Origin: Streptomyces coffeae
Lineage (GTDB): Bacteria > Actinomycetota > Actinomycetes > Streptomycetales > Streptomycetaceae
NCBI RefSeq assembly: GCF_016741875.1
Contig: NZ_JAERRF010000002.1
Location: 248,001-312,000 of the forward strand
DNA: 64,000 bases
Direction of reading: 5' to 3'
Part shown: positions 1 to 9,415 of the stretch, piece by piece
Layout: each line of letters begins with the position of its first letter
Numbering within the stretch: the first letter of the stretch is position 1
The notes under the pieces: model-generated
The model's input: the letters and a program-made list of their open reading frames with translations, nothing else
Told to the model about the DNA's origin: nothing
Databases searched by the model: none
Translations under genes and position numbers: made by a program

Positions 1-2247
1 CACCGGGCCGGGCTGATCCACCGTGATCTGAAACCGTCCAACGTGCTGCTGGCCTCCGACGGGCCGCGCGTCATCGACTTCGGTATCGCGCGTGCCATGG
101 ACGCCACGGCGCTGACCGGGCCGGACGTACGGCTGGGCACGCCCGGGTACATGGCGCCGGAGCAGATCGCGGGACGGGATGTCACCCCGGCATTGGACGT
201 CTTCGCCCTCGGCCTGCTGGCCCATTTCGCCGCCACCGCCGCGCACCCCTTCGGGGAGGGCCCGTCGCACGCGCTGCTGTACCGGATCGTGGCCGAGGAG
301 CCGGACCTCACCGCCTGCCCGGATGTGCTGCGCGGACTGGTGGACCGTTGTCTGGCGAAGGATCCCGGAGACCGCCCGACGCCCGCCGAGGTGATCGAGA
401 TCTGCCGGGAGCTGGCCGGTGAAGGGTTGCTGGAGCGCGACTCCCGGGGGTGGCTGCCCGAGGCGGTGGCCGGGCATGTGGCCCAGCAGGAGCGGCGGCG
501 GCCGGACGCGCCAGGCCCCGCCTCCCCGGCCCCGGCCCCGGCCCCAGAGAGTCACTTGCCGGGCGATCGGACACCGGACAGCCGGACACCGGGTGTGCGG
601 CCTCCCGGCCCCCGGGGCGCCGAGGACCGTTCTCCGGACCCCCGTGTTCCGCACTCCTCACCCGCCGTGGCCCGGCCCAGCGCCTCGCCCGCGCCTCCCT
701 CCCACGCGCCGTACGCTCCGGTGCCTCCGGTGCCTCCGGTGCCTCCCGTGCCTCCCGCCCGGACGCCACAGCGGTCCCGGGCGCGCGTCACGCTGGCGGT
801 GCTGGCTGCCCTGGCGGTGATCGGCGGGACCGTGTTCACCGTCGCGAAGCTCACGGGCGACGACGGTACGGACAAGGGCACCGGCGCCAAGGGCGGCTCC
901 ACGGGGAGCGGGAAGGGGAGCGCGAAGAAGAGCGCGACCCCCCGTTACGACCGCCCCCTCGGCAACATCATCGTGGGCGGCAAGCCGGTGACCGGTTCGC
1001 AGCACACCGACAGCGACCGCTTCCCGTACAAGCGCACGTACACCGACGGCGCGCTCTACTACCCCGTGACCGGCTACGCGTCCCAGTCCTTCGACGCCGC
1101 CGGGATCGAAAAGCTGTACCAGGGCGTTCTCAACGGCACGGAGGACGGCCTGAAGGCTCCGGGCAACGTCGTCACGACCGTGGATCCGGCGGTGCAGAAG
1201 GCGGCGTACGAGGCTCTGGGGGACGCCAAGGGCGCGGCCGTCGCCATCGATCCGTCGAACGGCGAGGTCCTCGGGATGGTGAGCACGCCGTCGTACGACC
1301 CGTCGACGTTCTCCGGGAGCACCGGCGACGACCTGAGGGCCTGGAAAAAGGCCAACAGCGACAAGAACACCCCGCTGCTGAACCGCGCGTTGAGGAACAC
1401 CTACTCACCGGGCGCGACGTTCGAGCTGGTGGTGACGGCGGCGGCGCTGGAGAACGGTCTGTACGACTCGATCGACGAGGCCACGGAGAGCCCCGAGCCG
1501 TACACCCTCCCGAGCACCGCCACGGCGGTACGGAACGAGGGCGGCACGGGGCACTGCAAGAACGTCAGCCTGCGGGTCGCACTGCGCGAGTCCTGCAACA
1601 CCGTCTTCGCGAAGCTGGCTTCCGACCTCGGGGAGAAGAAGCTGAGGCGCATGGCGGAGAAGTTCGGGTTCAACGACGAAGAACTCCTGGTGCCGGTCAA
1701 GGCCGCCGAAAGCGCGTACCCGAGCGGCGCGGACCGGGCCCACACCGCGCTCTCCGGCCTCGGTCAGGCCGATGTGAAGGCGACCCCGCTCCAGTTGGCG
1801 ATGGTGTCGGCGGCGCTGGAGAACGACGGCAAGCTGGTCGCGCCCCACCTGGTCTCGCGGGTGACGGACGCCGAGGGCAAGACCCTGCGCAAGGGCTCGG
1901 ACCCCGCCACCACCCAGGTGGTGAGCGCGAAGACGGCGGGCGCGCTGCGCTCGGCGATGGCGGACGTCATCGCCCGGGGCGCGGGCCGAGCGGCTCGTGT
2001 CAGCGGCGCCGACCTCGGCGGCCAGCCCGGCACGGCCCACGGCGGTACCGCCGGCGGTACGACCGAGGCGCAGACCCGTTGGTTCACCTCGTACGCGCGG
2101 AGCGGTGGGGGCGGCGGCAAGCGGGTGGCGGTCGCGGTGGTCGTGGAGGACGGCCAGAGCGGGGACGGTCAGGGCGGGGACGGTCAGGGCGGGGACGGTC
2201 AGGCGGCCGGGATCGCCAAGCGGATCATGCAGGCGGCGATCGGCTGA
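1..2247 (+). CDS. Ser/Thr protein kinase fused to a degenerate penicillin-binding transpeptidase domain (5' partial)
   Basis: The reading frame is open from base 1, so the kinase N-lobe lies outside the window. Visible kinase parts are the catalytic loop HRDLKPSN (residues 7-14 of the fragment), the DFG motif and a GTPGYMAPEQ activation segment. A Pro-rich linker with PVPP repeats and one membrane span (about nt 781-852) follow, then an external domain laid out like PbpA-type transpeptidases. The active-site block reads GATFE where GSTFK is expected (nt 1411-1425), so both the nucleophilic Ser and the Lys are missing. SCN is kept (nt 1591-1599), but KTGTA has become QPGTA (nt 2023-2037). I infer an active kinase with a non-catalytic, possibly muropeptide- or beta-lactam-sensing, ectodomain. 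The C-terminal part carries an in-frame GDGQG repeat. Confidence 0.9.
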   Translation, partial: HRAGLIHRDLKPSNVLLASDGPRVIDFGIARAMDATALTGPDVRLGTPGYMAPEQIAGRDVTPALDVFALGLLAHFAATAAHPFGEGPSHALLYRIVAEEPDLTACPDVLRGLVDRCLAKDPGDRPTPAEVIEICRELAGEGLLERDSRGWLPEAVAGHVAQQERRRPDAPGPASPAPAPAPESHLPGDRTPDSRTPGVRPPGPRGAEDRSPDPRVPHSSPAVARPSASPAPPSHAPYAPVPPVPPVPPVPPARTPQRSRARVTLAVLAALAVIGGTVFTVAKLTGDDGTDKGTGAKGGSTGSGKGSAKKSATPRYDRPLGNIIVGGKPVTGSQHTDSDRFPYKRTYTDGALYYPVTGYASQSFDAAGIEKLYQGVLNGTEDGLKAPGNVVTTVDPAVQKAAYEALGDAKGAAVAIDPSNGEVLGMVSTPSYDPSTFSGSTGDDLRAWKKANSDKNTPLLNRALRNTYSPGATFELVVTAAALENGLYDSIDEATESPEPYTLPSTATAVRNEGGTGHCKNVSLRVALRESCNTVFAKLASDLGEKKLRRMAEKFGFNDEELLVPVKAAESAYPSGADRAHTALSGLGQADVKATPLQLAMVSAALENDGKLVAPHLVSRVTDAEGKTLRKGSDPATTQVVSAKTAGALRSAMADVIARGAGRAARVSGADLGGQPGTAHGGTAGGTTEAQTRWFTSYARSGGGGGKRVAVAVVVEDGQSGDGQGGDGQGGDGQAAGIAKRIMQAAIG

Positions 2248-6284: not shown

Positions 6285-8924
6285 TCATCGGGGGGTCACC
6301 ACCGCTGCCCAGCGGCCCAGCGACGCGGCGGGGCCATCGACCCAGTCGACAGCGGGAGCGCACTCCGCCGCCATGTCGGCACCGTCGGTCCAGGAGGTCA
6401 CGATGGGCACCCAGTAGGTGTTGCCGCCCGAGGTGCGCGTACGTTCGTCGAGGGCGGAGCGCGTACGCCGGGCACCGTCGTGGTCACGGGCGAGAACGTC
6501 GAGGAGGATCTCGGCCACATCTGCCAGGTTGTGGCCACCCCGGTAGCCGATCCCGTCCGTCAGACGACGGGTGTCGCCAACCGCTTCCCGGGCCGCCGCG
6601 GGGTCCCCGGACATCGCATGGGCGACCGCCTCGGCGGAACGGATCTTGACGAGTTCAACGGGGTTGGGCACGAGGTCGAGCAGCTCCCGAGCCTGGTCCG
6701 CCGCGTCGGACACCGTGTCCGTGTCCCCGGACCAGCAAGCCGTCTGGGCCAGGTTGGCCAGGGCCTTCGCCTCGGCGGCGGCCAGTCCCTCCTCGCGGGC
6801 CAGGGCGATCGCCTCGGTATAGGCGTCGGTGGCTTCGCCGAAGCGTGCGTTGACCCGCAAGATATGGCCGATCAGCCGGAGCCGTTCACCCTCGTCCGCG
6901 GCGTTGCGGCTTTGCTGCTCCCGTAGGGTGGCGAGGGCTGTGCCGAAGCGCCCGTTGAGATAGTCGTAGTCGGAGAGCCAGTAGCGCGCGGCAGCTTCGA
7001 ACTCTCCTCCCAGCAGGCCCTGGTAGATCTCCGCGGCCCTCGTGTAGTCGCCATGGTTGCGCAGCGCGTGAGCGTGGTGGAGGCGTACCAGATGTGCCGT
7101 CAGGCTGCCGGGGCCCAGGCCCGCGTCAGCGCCGTCCAGGACCCCGATCGCCTCCTGGGCGCGCCCGGCCCGGCGCAGCTGGACGCCCTGGATCGCGGCG
7201 CGGATCGCCCGGAACTCCGGAATCCCCGCGGCACCGGTGGCAAGCCCCGCTCCGATCTCCGTCCACTGCCCCGCCTCGACCAGCCGCTGAGTGGCCCGCG
7301 CCATCCAGTCGTCGAAGACTCCGTAGCCGCCCGACAACTTGAGGCCGGATGCAAGGACCTGTGCGGTCGCGGCACGCCCGGCCGAGGACCCCAGCCGCTC
7401 CCCCAGCCAGCGCAGCAGCCTGGCGGCGACCTCGCTGCGATCGCGGTCCGACCAGCCGTCCGGGAGTTGCCGGTCGGCCTCGCCGATGGCGTGACGCAGC
7501 GCCGCGTGCAAGGTGTACGGAAGCTCGTATGCGTCGTCGTGCGTCAGAAACGGACGCCGCAGGAAACGCCCCACGCAACCGTCCGGAAGGGAGGGCTGAC
7601 CTGCCCGCAGCATTCCGGCATCGGCCCTGTCGATGAGCGCCGCCGTACGGACCAGATCGCGCTCCTCTTGAGGGAGGTCCCTGATCGACCGGGTGGCGAC
7701 GGCGGTGAACGTTCCCCCGAAGTCGTCCACCGACGGCTGTCCACCGCGCGCCAGCAGCTCGACGAAGTGCGAGACCGAAAGATCCAGATACAGCGGCAGC
7801 CCCTGGCCGCCGGAGATGATGCGCTCGCGTACTCCGGCCGGCATTGCCGGCTCGCCGTCCCGGGTGAGCGCCTCACGGAGATAGCTGTCGGCATCGGAGT
7901 CCGACAGGTATCCCACGAGGTGCTGGCGCGGCTCGGCCGTGTCATTGCCGAAGTGCAGGTACGGCCAGCGCTCCGGTCCGGTGAAGTCCAGCTCACCGCT
8001 CGCCCGGTTGTCCGCCCAGTCGATGCGGTTCCGGCCGGTGTTCACGAACAGGGCGTTCGGCATCAGATAGACGCATCGCTGTATGAATCGCTCTGCCGTG
8101 CGGTCGCTCCGGCCGCCGAGCACCTCGAAGGTGTCGAGGAATACGCACACCGTGGGCCGCCTGGCGGGGCGCCCCCGGCGGCCCGGCTGCCTTTCCAGAT
8201 CCCAGGCCAGCAGATACGGGAAGAACGACAGAGTTTCGTAGTCGGCGTCCGCCTCGACCAGTTCGGCGAAGAGCTCGCACTCGGACAGCAGTCGCCCCTC
8301 CCGCACCCGGTCCCGGATGGCCCGGTAGGTGCCCAGCGCCGCGCGGTGCGCGAGCCCCGCCACACCGCCCACATCCGCGGGGACGACCTGCCCGACGCTC
8401 CCCGCGATCTGCTCGCTCAGGCCGACACTGCGCGCCGCGCGCCGCATCGCGGGCGAGGCGTCCAGGAACTCCTGCAACGTCTCCCCCGGGTGGGCGCGAG
8501 CCCAGTAGGAGGCCAGGGCCAGGTCGAAGGCCGGCCAGCGGTTGCCCAGCTGTCCCAGCCCTGCCCGCAGGCGCAGGAGCAGGCTCTCGATGTCGGAGGC
8601 GCCGTCCTCGGAGACATCGACCCGTATGGACACGACGTCCTCCCTGCCCTCGGCTCGGGCGTCCGAGAGGAGCCGTCGCTCCAACTCGTGCGAGAGAGTT
8701 GTCTTCCCGATGCCACCCACCCCGTAGAACGTCAGGACGTTGTGACGCCCCTGCAATCGGTCGACGACAGGTGAGACGTCTGCATCGTCCAGGGCCTGGT
8801 GAAGCCCGATGAGCGACCGGTCGAACGCGGCCACCTCGTCAATCCGGTTGGTGAACACCTGTTGGGCGGCGACGGTGGACTCCATACCGCTCATGAAGGC
8901 GGCACGTAAGTTCACTCGTGCCAT
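6285..8924 (-). CDS. STAND-type ATP-binding protein with C-terminal helical repeats
   Basis: This 879-residue protein has a Walker A motif GVGGIGKTT near residue 68 and a Walker B-like CVFLDTFE near residue 260, followed by a winged-helix/helical stretch and about 350 residues of tetratricopeptide-like repeats. This is the layout of STAND NTPases, which act as ligand-triggered switches in regulation or defence. The ATG at 8924 was chosen because GAGGAGACC precedes it at ideal distance; the open frame extends to 9053 without such support. No N-terminal effector domain (nuclease, protease, TIR) is recognisable in the first 60 residues, so the output is unknown. It lies next to the WXG100-like cluster but on the opposite strand. 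Confidence 0.85.
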   Translation of the reverse strand: MARVNLRAAFMSGMESTVAAQQVFTNRIDEVAAFDRSLIGLHQALDDADVSPVVDRLQGRHNVLTFYGVGGIGKTTLSHELERRLLSDARAEGREDVVSIRVDVSEDGASDIESLLLRLRAGLGQLGNRWPAFDLALASYWARAHPGETLQEFLDASPAMRRAARSVGLSEQIAGSVGQVVPADVGGVAGLAHRAALGTYRAIRDRVREGRLLSECELFAELVEADADYETLSFFPYLLAWDLERQPGRRGRPARRPTVCVFLDTFEVLGGRSDRTAERFIQRCVYLMPNALFVNTGRNRIDWADNRASGELDFTGPERWPYLHFGNDTAEPRQHLVGYLSDSDADSYLREALTRDGEPAMPAGVRERIISGGQGLPLYLDLSVSHFVELLARGGQPSVDDFGGTFTAVATRSIRDLPQEERDLVRTAALIDRADAGMLRAGQPSLPDGCVGRFLRRPFLTHDDAYELPYTLHAALRHAIGEADRQLPDGWSDRDRSEVAARLLRWLGERLGSSAGRAATAQVLASGLKLSGGYGVFDDWMARATQRLVEAGQWTEIGAGLATGAAGIPEFRAIRAAIQGVQLRRAGRAQEAIGVLDGADAGLGPGSLTAHLVRLHHAHALRNHGDYTRAAEIYQGLLGGEFEAAARYWLSDYDYLNGRFGTALATLREQQSRNAADEGERLRLIGHILRVNARFGEATDAYTEAIALAREEGLAAAEAKALANLAQTACWSGDTDTVSDAADQARELLDLVPNPVELVKIRSAEAVAHAMSGDPAAAREAVGDTRRLTDGIGYRGGHNLADVAEILLDVLARDHDGARRTRSALDERTRTSGGNTYWVPIVTSWTDGADMAAECAPAVDWVDGPAASLGRWAAVVTPR

Positions 8925-9415
8925 CTGGTCTCCTCGGGCAGCAGTTTCACGGGTACGTCGGCGGACGCCCGTCAAGCACCCGCCCAACAGGCACGACGGT
9001 AGCGTGGCCACGGTCGGTCCCGGAACACAGCGCGTGCGCTGCCCGTCGCCCATCGGGAGAACGGCCCGGGTGACGGCGAACGCCGTCCGCTGCGGTCATG
9101 TCCCGGGCCGGGACTTCCACCTCCGCCTGGCCGCTACCGGCTGCCGCACACCGGCGTCGCCGACTTCGCCGGGCCCAGCCGCACCTGGCTCGCCCGCAGC
9201 TTGCGCGGCTCCTTCACCGCCCGGTCCCCTATACGGCGGTCAGGGTGACCGGGCAAGGCGGTCGGGCAGCTGACCACCTGAACCGCAGCGTCAAGGAGCC
9301 GGCCTGCCACTTACCGCTTCTCGGTGACACACCGACCTTCATGCATCCGTACTCGCTGTCAACTCCCCTAAGCTGTACGTCACTTCATGTTCATGACGCA
9401 CCTTGGGGAGAGAGC
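8925..9415. other. Gene-free 490-bp divergent region
   Basis: No convincing gene was found. The right 120 bases are less GC-rich and likely hold the promoter of the following WXG100-like gene. A short coding-like patch on the plus strand around 9130-9250 (ending at a TGA near 9249) has no start and no recognised homologue, and may be a remnant of a lost gene. Both flanking genes read away from this region. Confidence 0.3.

Follow-up and report, generated by a model that had tools for sequence, protein, structure and literature searches.

Gene and domain layout

At the left end of a 64,000-nucleotide stretch of the Streptomyces coffeae genome (contig NZ_JAERRF010000002.1, positions 248,001 to 312,000; hereafter the window) lies the 3' part of a gene that joins a Hanks-type kinase to a degenerate penicillin-binding protein (PBP) transpeptidase domain. 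The open frame is cut by the left window edge: window positions 1..2247, plus strand, encode residues 141-888, and residues 1-140 are encoded left of the window (L009:7581-8000). The whole gene, L009:7581-10247 on contig C111 of the 9.9-Mb genome G000, encodes a protein of 888 amino acids, P0001. All features that follow lie on the plus strand. Positions 1..396 hold the C-terminal part of the kinase domain (PF00069, whole domain residues 27-272, E 1.6e-40), and the motifs expected of a Hanks-type kinase are intact, i.e., VALK at residue 52, HRDLKPSN at 147 and DFGIA at 166, the latter two inside the window. A Pro-rich linker, read from the sequence and presumably cytosolic (397..786, residues 273-402), leads to a single transmembrane helix predicted by hydropathy scan (787..843, residues 403-421), which by eye is of the kinase-family type and not of the PBP type. 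Beyond the helix are a PbpA dimerisation domain, PBP_dimer_2 (961..1152, residues 461-524; PF21922, E 1.1e-16), and the PbpA-type transpeptidase domain (1231..2232, residues 551-884; PF00905, E 2.6e-50). This ectodomain is predicted to be extracellular; we infer the membrane topology and the kinase activity from sequence.

The transpeptidase domain has lost its catalytic residues. The SxxK block (1414..1425) reads ATFE, where Ala612 and Glu615 replace Ser and Lys (context SPG-ATFE-LVV, residues 609-618); the SxN motif is kept as SCN (1591..1599, residues 671-673; ESCN in context); and the KTG box reads QPG (2023..2031, residues 815-817), giving GGQPGT where GGKTGT is expected. Of the hallmarks of PbpA and class B PBPs, the fold, the dimerisation domain and SxN are present, and SxxK and K(T/S)G are absent. 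An earlier note on this DNA had described just such a kinase joined to a PbpA-type transpeptidase domain with a lost active site, and the whole gene, its Pfam order and its motifs bear this out; GATFE for GSTFK, QPG for KTG and SCN as the sole survivor read exactly as the note had them. The note had also placed the transpeptidase ectodomain where PASTA repeats would stand, in agreement with a Pfam scan of P0001 that returned no PASTA match up to E 0.01, so that P0001 does not classify as a PASTA kinase. It had named a missing transpeptidase fold as grounds for giving up the idea; the modelled ectodomain retains the PbpA fold with a mean predicted local distance difference test score (pLDDT) of 90.5.

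Motif loss among kinase fusions

Homologues were collected in three protein searches, each scoring about 8000 candidates and listing the best 120. Please note that these matches were selected for their likeness to three queries; fractions given here and below therefore describe the matches listed and are not population figures. Twelve clusters have the kinase first and the transpeptidase last: P0001, P0002, P0003, P0013, P0020, P0063, P0136, P0239 and the metagenomic P0153, P0161, P0163 and P0186, with hosts including Streptomyces cucumeris (P0003, the nearest named relative among the matches listed), Wenjunlia tyrosinilytica (P0013) and S. actuosus (P0063). Eight of these 12 have lost the Ser or the Lys of SxxK. 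ATFE is common to P0001, P0002 and P0003, and QPG recurs in P0002, with QPA in P0003; since P0002 and P0003 carry ATFE as well, chance in a single sequence does not account for the change.

Among the short PBPs listed, Ser or Lys is lost in 1 of 112, the sole case being P0004, which is probably a fragment of a kinase-type fusion because its start resembles a linker and a kinase-type helix. A scan of genome contigs with P0001 served as another control: its best 80 loci are standalone PBPs with motifs intact in 80/80, i.e., 0/80 standalone loci from named genomes show the loss. FtsW::transpeptidase fusions show it in two of the 69 listed, both at disrupted alignment. With FtsW fusions mostly intact and kinase fusions mostly dead, the loss among the listed matches tracks fusion behind a signalling domain and not fusion itself. 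The Fisher value for fusion against motif loss, 4e-10, is descriptive only, as it ignores relatedness and the way in which the matches were chosen. Rows dropped before these counts were P0149, whose transpeptidase could not be aligned, and the reverse-order fusions P0146, P0152, P0176 and P0220.

These four reverse-order proteins (PbpA first, kinase last) resemble a fused PbpA-PknB gene pair; in the three that can be aligned at SxxK, this motif is STFK. As a separate observation, P0209, P0213 and P0218 combine FHA, FtsW and transpeptidase, i.e., a phosphothreonine-binding domain joined to a SEDS-PBP synthase.

Caspase fusions and phylogeny

The same searches found proteins that combine an N-terminal caspase domain (PF00656) with a related transpeptidase ectodomain: P0069, P0122-P0134, P0159, P0022, P0032, P0053 and P0058, one of the fusions lying at L104:5880-8105. 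Their domain order was verified by Pfam scan for five proteins. Ser or Lys is lost in 6 of the 19 that can be aligned among the matches listed. Caspase fusions that keep both residues could be true beta-lactam-acylated death receptors. At L104, the sole caspase fusion locus inspected by eye, the neighbour is divergent, and no same-strand gene, such as the EACC1 gene of the two-gene EACC1 systems, was seen directly 5'.

The careful tree was inferred by maximum likelihood with the motif residues masked. P0163, which nearly duplicates P0161, was left out of it, together with 10 of 30 short PBPs and 2 of 8 rows labelled ftsW; the quick first tree was without P0239, and alignment A1 holds P0022 twice. 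P0138 and P0142 are labelled ftsW in the trees wrongly, having no FtsW domain, and stand outside the 69 FtsW fusions counted above. Kinase- and caspase-fused ectodomains are intermingled: clade 1 (support 100/98) unites the window type, P0013, P0020 and P0004 with four caspase fusions, a second mixed clade (100/100) holds three metagenomic kinase fusions and one caspase fusion, and P0063 pairs with the caspase fusion P0127 at a weaker 91/85. A single clade of all eight Streptomyces-type kinase-fused domains was rejected by the approximately unbiased (AU) test (p 0.0003), and placement of P0063 inside clade 1 was weakly rejected (p 0.036). Monophyly of the clade-1 kinases, with P0004 and excluding the caspases, was not rejected (AU p 0.29). 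P0136 paired with caspases in the quick tree, a grouping absent from the careful one. In the tree of kinase domains, P0001-3, P0013, P0020 and P0063 cluster at a support of 80-82 only.

In one pair that spans the two architectures, the kinase fusion P0161 and the caspase fusion P0159, identity is 81% along 519 residues beginning in the cytosolic-type linker upstream of the membrane helix, and both proteins keep Ser and Lys. The two clade-1 caspase proteins scanned, P0022 and P0053, have by eye a membrane helix of the kinase-family type. Because of the mixed clades, the P0161/P0159 identity and this helix, the linker, helix and transpeptidase appear to have been carried as one module from one output domain to another. 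Loss of Ser or Lys requires at least five changes on the tree by parsimony, and Glu at the Lys position is found in P0001-P0003, P0004, three clade-1 caspase fusions, P0128 and P0134.

Selection on the ectodomain

Ratios of nonsynonymous to synonymous substitution (dN/dS) come from one pair, P0001 and P0002 (the latter at L102, genome G077). The kinase domain has a dN/dS of 0.22 and the ectodomain one of 0.47 (bootstrap 0.35-0.62), with 0/200 bootstraps at or above 1, i.e., in this pair purifying selection acts on the ectodomain. Within the transpeptidase domain, the N-terminal half, which bears the SxxK and SxN blocks, gives 0.33 (0.18-0.52). We also compared divergence in windows around the motifs with that in the rest of the domain; this relative value is 0.28 in P0001-P0003, i.e., the motif surroundings are much more alike than the rest. 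For comparison, three standalone PBP sets give 0.42, 0.44 and 0.00, and two caspase fusion sets keeping Ser and Lys give 0.48 and 0.68.

Rarity, paralogues and neighbourhood

The window type is rare. In a survey of 392 genomes of the genus (E 1e-145, 4 candidates per genome scored), the window type was found in two, G000 and G077, with a further match in G078 (58% identity, 528-residue frame); the clade-1 caspase type was found in one (G188). In 20 close relatives the best match to P0001 is 58% identical, and none of 1042 matching plasmid records has a single place that covers 80% of the query. Genome G000 holds 13 PF00905 matches. The P0001 ectodomain is 46-55% identical to its two closest paralogues there, those at L010 (SAFK/SCN/KTG) and L011 (STFK/SCN/KTG), the former being nearer to the dead ectodomain. 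By eye, the L010 paralogue (L010:6423-7868) is an additional PbpA-like gene, flanked by valS-like and folC-like genes, with mreB-like and mreC-like genes close by. At L011, PbpA adjoins what reads as a PASTA-type kinase gene, and by this reading the genome also carries a kinase of that type.

On the same strand, a gene for a 181-amino-acid P-loop protein (L009:7000-7545; AAA_18, E 1.4e-7) ends 35 bases upstream of the kinase gene. At the P0002 locus the upstream gene is instead, by eye, Old-Yellow-Enzyme-like, and since the P-loop gene is missing there we claim no operon of the two. Elsewhere in the window, a 922-amino-acid frame on the minus strand (6285-9053), with a P-loop GVGGIGKTT and a repeat-like C-terminus, resembles by eye a STAND-type NTPase.

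Proposed function and alternatives

We propose, at a probability of about 0.6, that P0001 is a wall-state receptor kinase with a non-covalent pseudo-PBP as sensor, in which two copies brought together would switch the kinase on. Receptor kinases of the Hanks type become active once they are drawn together by their ectodomains. The dead ectodomain would bind, without any reaction, either a wall peptide or a partner from wall synthesis, and binding would pair two copies and turn the kinase on (trigger, ligand and substrates being what we infer here). With the PbpA fold and the dimerisation domain kept and no acylation chemistry left, a non-reacting receptor that pairs two kinases is the simplest reading. 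One ectodomain family joined recurrently to two unrelated outputs is what is expected of a sensor, not of an enzyme, and the caspase fusions offer the best argument for such a role; a module shared by two signalling outputs, together with about five inactivations by parsimony, would fit a receptor better than an enzyme. Passages of PMC12077195 describe PASTA ectodomains that bind wall fragments or precursors, and passages of PMC9834060 describe BlaR1, whose penicillin-recognising domain signals across the membrane, but through acylation, of which P0001 should be incapable.

A number of results weigh against the proposal. The C-terminal half of the transpeptidase domain is looser, with a dN/dS of 0.59 (0.37-0.98) and 4/200 bootstraps at or above 1, and the dimerisation domain (0.63) and the membrane helix region (0.84) are looser too. 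Relative motif-window divergence rises to 0.81 in the clade-1 kinases, 0.80 in the clade-1 caspases and 0.97 between P0136 and P0239; given these high values in the wider dead sets, one shared pocket ligand is not supported, and the ligand, if any, may differ between lineages. A tree-based paired test of fusion against motif loss was not significant (median p 0.5, 3-4 pairs). The immediate neighbours of P0001 and P0002 differ, so that no neighbour indicates a pathway. Conservation of the Ser and Lys losses in homologues, which the earlier note had proposed to test, holds for the eight clusters counted above and not for the four others of the 12 listed: P0063, of equal architecture, has all three motifs intact (GSTFK/SCN/KTG), and P0161, P0163 and P0186 keep Ser, Lys and KTG, their SxN reading SCD. 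Thirteen of the 19 listed caspase fusions likewise retain both residues. Judging from these sequences, catalysis or acylation may be important to some family members. The note's other ground for giving up the idea was homologues of equal architecture with intact motifs, showing decay of one copy alone; here the outcome is mixed, as P0063 is intact and yet P0001 is not alone in its decay. Overall, the observation in the earlier note is confirmed and its interpretation is partly supported.

The strongest alternative, which we nevertheless regard as unlikely, is a scaffold or decoy: the ectodomain would pair, through its dimerisation domain and surface, with real PBPs or SEDS partners and place the kinase at the wall-synthesis machine to phosphorylate it, with no small ligand. 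No analysis here separates scaffold from receptor. Retention of the dimerisation domain and fold with loss of the catalytic site suits a scaffold, as do motif surroundings that are not kept in the wider comparisons. SEDS pairing uses the PBP helix, and in P0001 the N-terminal helix of PBP type is replaced, by eye, by one of the kinase-family type, which counts against a scaffold; the caspase fusions, too, are harder to explain as placement. On its side are passages of PMC12077195, in which the septal place of PBP2x is said to depend on the extracellular domain of the kinase StkP, and PMC5656894, which examines the proposed catalytic role of a division PBP. Plain decay, in which a kinase gained a transpeptidase by chance and the gained domain is on its way to being lost by drift, would account for losses that vary by lineage (ATFE, ATFQ, SAFM, FTFS, STFD), for the relaxed C-terminal half and for the rarity of the close type (2/392 genomes). 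We think it quite improbable in view of the 888-codon open frame, the ectodomain dN/dS with no bootstrap reaching 1, the fold modelled with high confidence, and the survival of the kinase fusion in clusters with 50-80% identity to P0001 in the ectodomain part.

Hardly likely as well is a covalent receptor in which the drug acylates the transpeptidase domain and a signal passes to kinase or caspase. The layout of BlaR1 (passages of PMC9834060), with a penicillin-recognising domain outside and an effector inside, is alike, and P0063, three metagenomic kinase fusions and the 13 caspase fusions keep Ser and Lys; P0001 and seven other kinase clusters, however, lack Ser, Lys or both. Beta-lactam sensing was one of the options in the earlier note; in the BlaR1 way it is not supported for P0001, whose acylatable Ser is replaced by Ala612, and covalent sensing by this protein is improbable because it requires an acylated serine. 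Members with Ser and Lys might, by analogy, still signal by acylation. The least probable reading makes the transpeptidase domain an effector cargo deployed by auto-proteolysis, a role that Kaur et al. propose for the variable C-terminal domains of EACC1-linked caspases; in passages of PMC7159879 these caspases carry up to 50 different C-terminal domains, taken there to be effectors, and several NCBI names of the fusions are 'caspase, EACC1-associated type'. The kinase fusions have no protease domain, so this reading does not apply to them, inactive transpeptidases are poor effectors, and L104 (one locus, by eye) has no same-strand gene directly 5'.

Relation to known systems and significance

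Each component is already known separately, be it the kinase, the PbpA fold or the caspase with an exchangeable tail, and P0001 is a variant among receptor kinases with exchangeable sensors. It shares with PASTA kinases (PknB, StkP, PrkC) a Hanks-type kinase, a juxtamembrane linker, a single predicted helix and a wall-related ectodomain, but in P0001 this ectodomain consists of a complete PbpA-type transpeptidase fold whose motifs are dead. The fold and the dimerisation domain are those of Mycobacterium tuberculosis PbpA (3un7, 3lo7, 3upn-3upp) and Streptomyces class B PBPs; unlike them, P0001 has lost Ser, Lys and KTG, its own membrane helix has been replaced and a kinase is attached. As in BlaR1/MecR1, a penicillin-recognising fold lies outside and an effector enzyme inside, whereas passages of PMC9834060 give those proteins a serine-acylated sensor and a zinc metalloprotease, and P0001 has no such serine and a kinase instead. 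The caspase fusions, with a caspase-type N-terminus and exchangeable C-terminal domains, are like the EACC1-linked caspase proteins in passages of Kaur et al. 2020 (PMC7159879); P0001 differs in having a kinase in the caspase position. The AfsK family is its best NCBIfam match, and related Streptomyces kinases have a similar helix type, but only the N-terminal part of the model is matched (positions 8-370 of 809), at 289.6 bits against a cut-off of 1300, so P0001 is not assigned to AfsK. In the open-licence literature, with subscription papers outside our scope, we found no account of a kinase::transpeptidase or caspase::transpeptidase fusion, or of a dead transpeptidase as their ectodomain. 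The word transpeptidase is absent from the main text of PMC8195603 and PMC7159879, and passages of PMC2877116 and PMC6273383 do not describe a kinase::transpeptidase fusion.

Bacterial receptor kinases are known to sense the wall through PASTA repeats, and beta-lactams are known to be sensed by BlaR1. A dead PBP as kinase sensor, if true, would be a third route, and one built from the very target of the drug. Judging by the parallel caspase fusions, cell death could be another outcome of this sensor, and wall damage would then be linked to caspase-type proteases in multicellular bacteria. More tentatively, and with less than an even chance in our estimate, Actinobacteria may turn PBPs into modular wall-integrity immune receptors, in which a repeatedly inactivated transmembrane pseudo-transpeptidase senses the wall state and is set on a kinase for adaptation or on a caspase for cell death. 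The intact, half-dead and dead members form a natural series for studying how an enzyme becomes a receptor.
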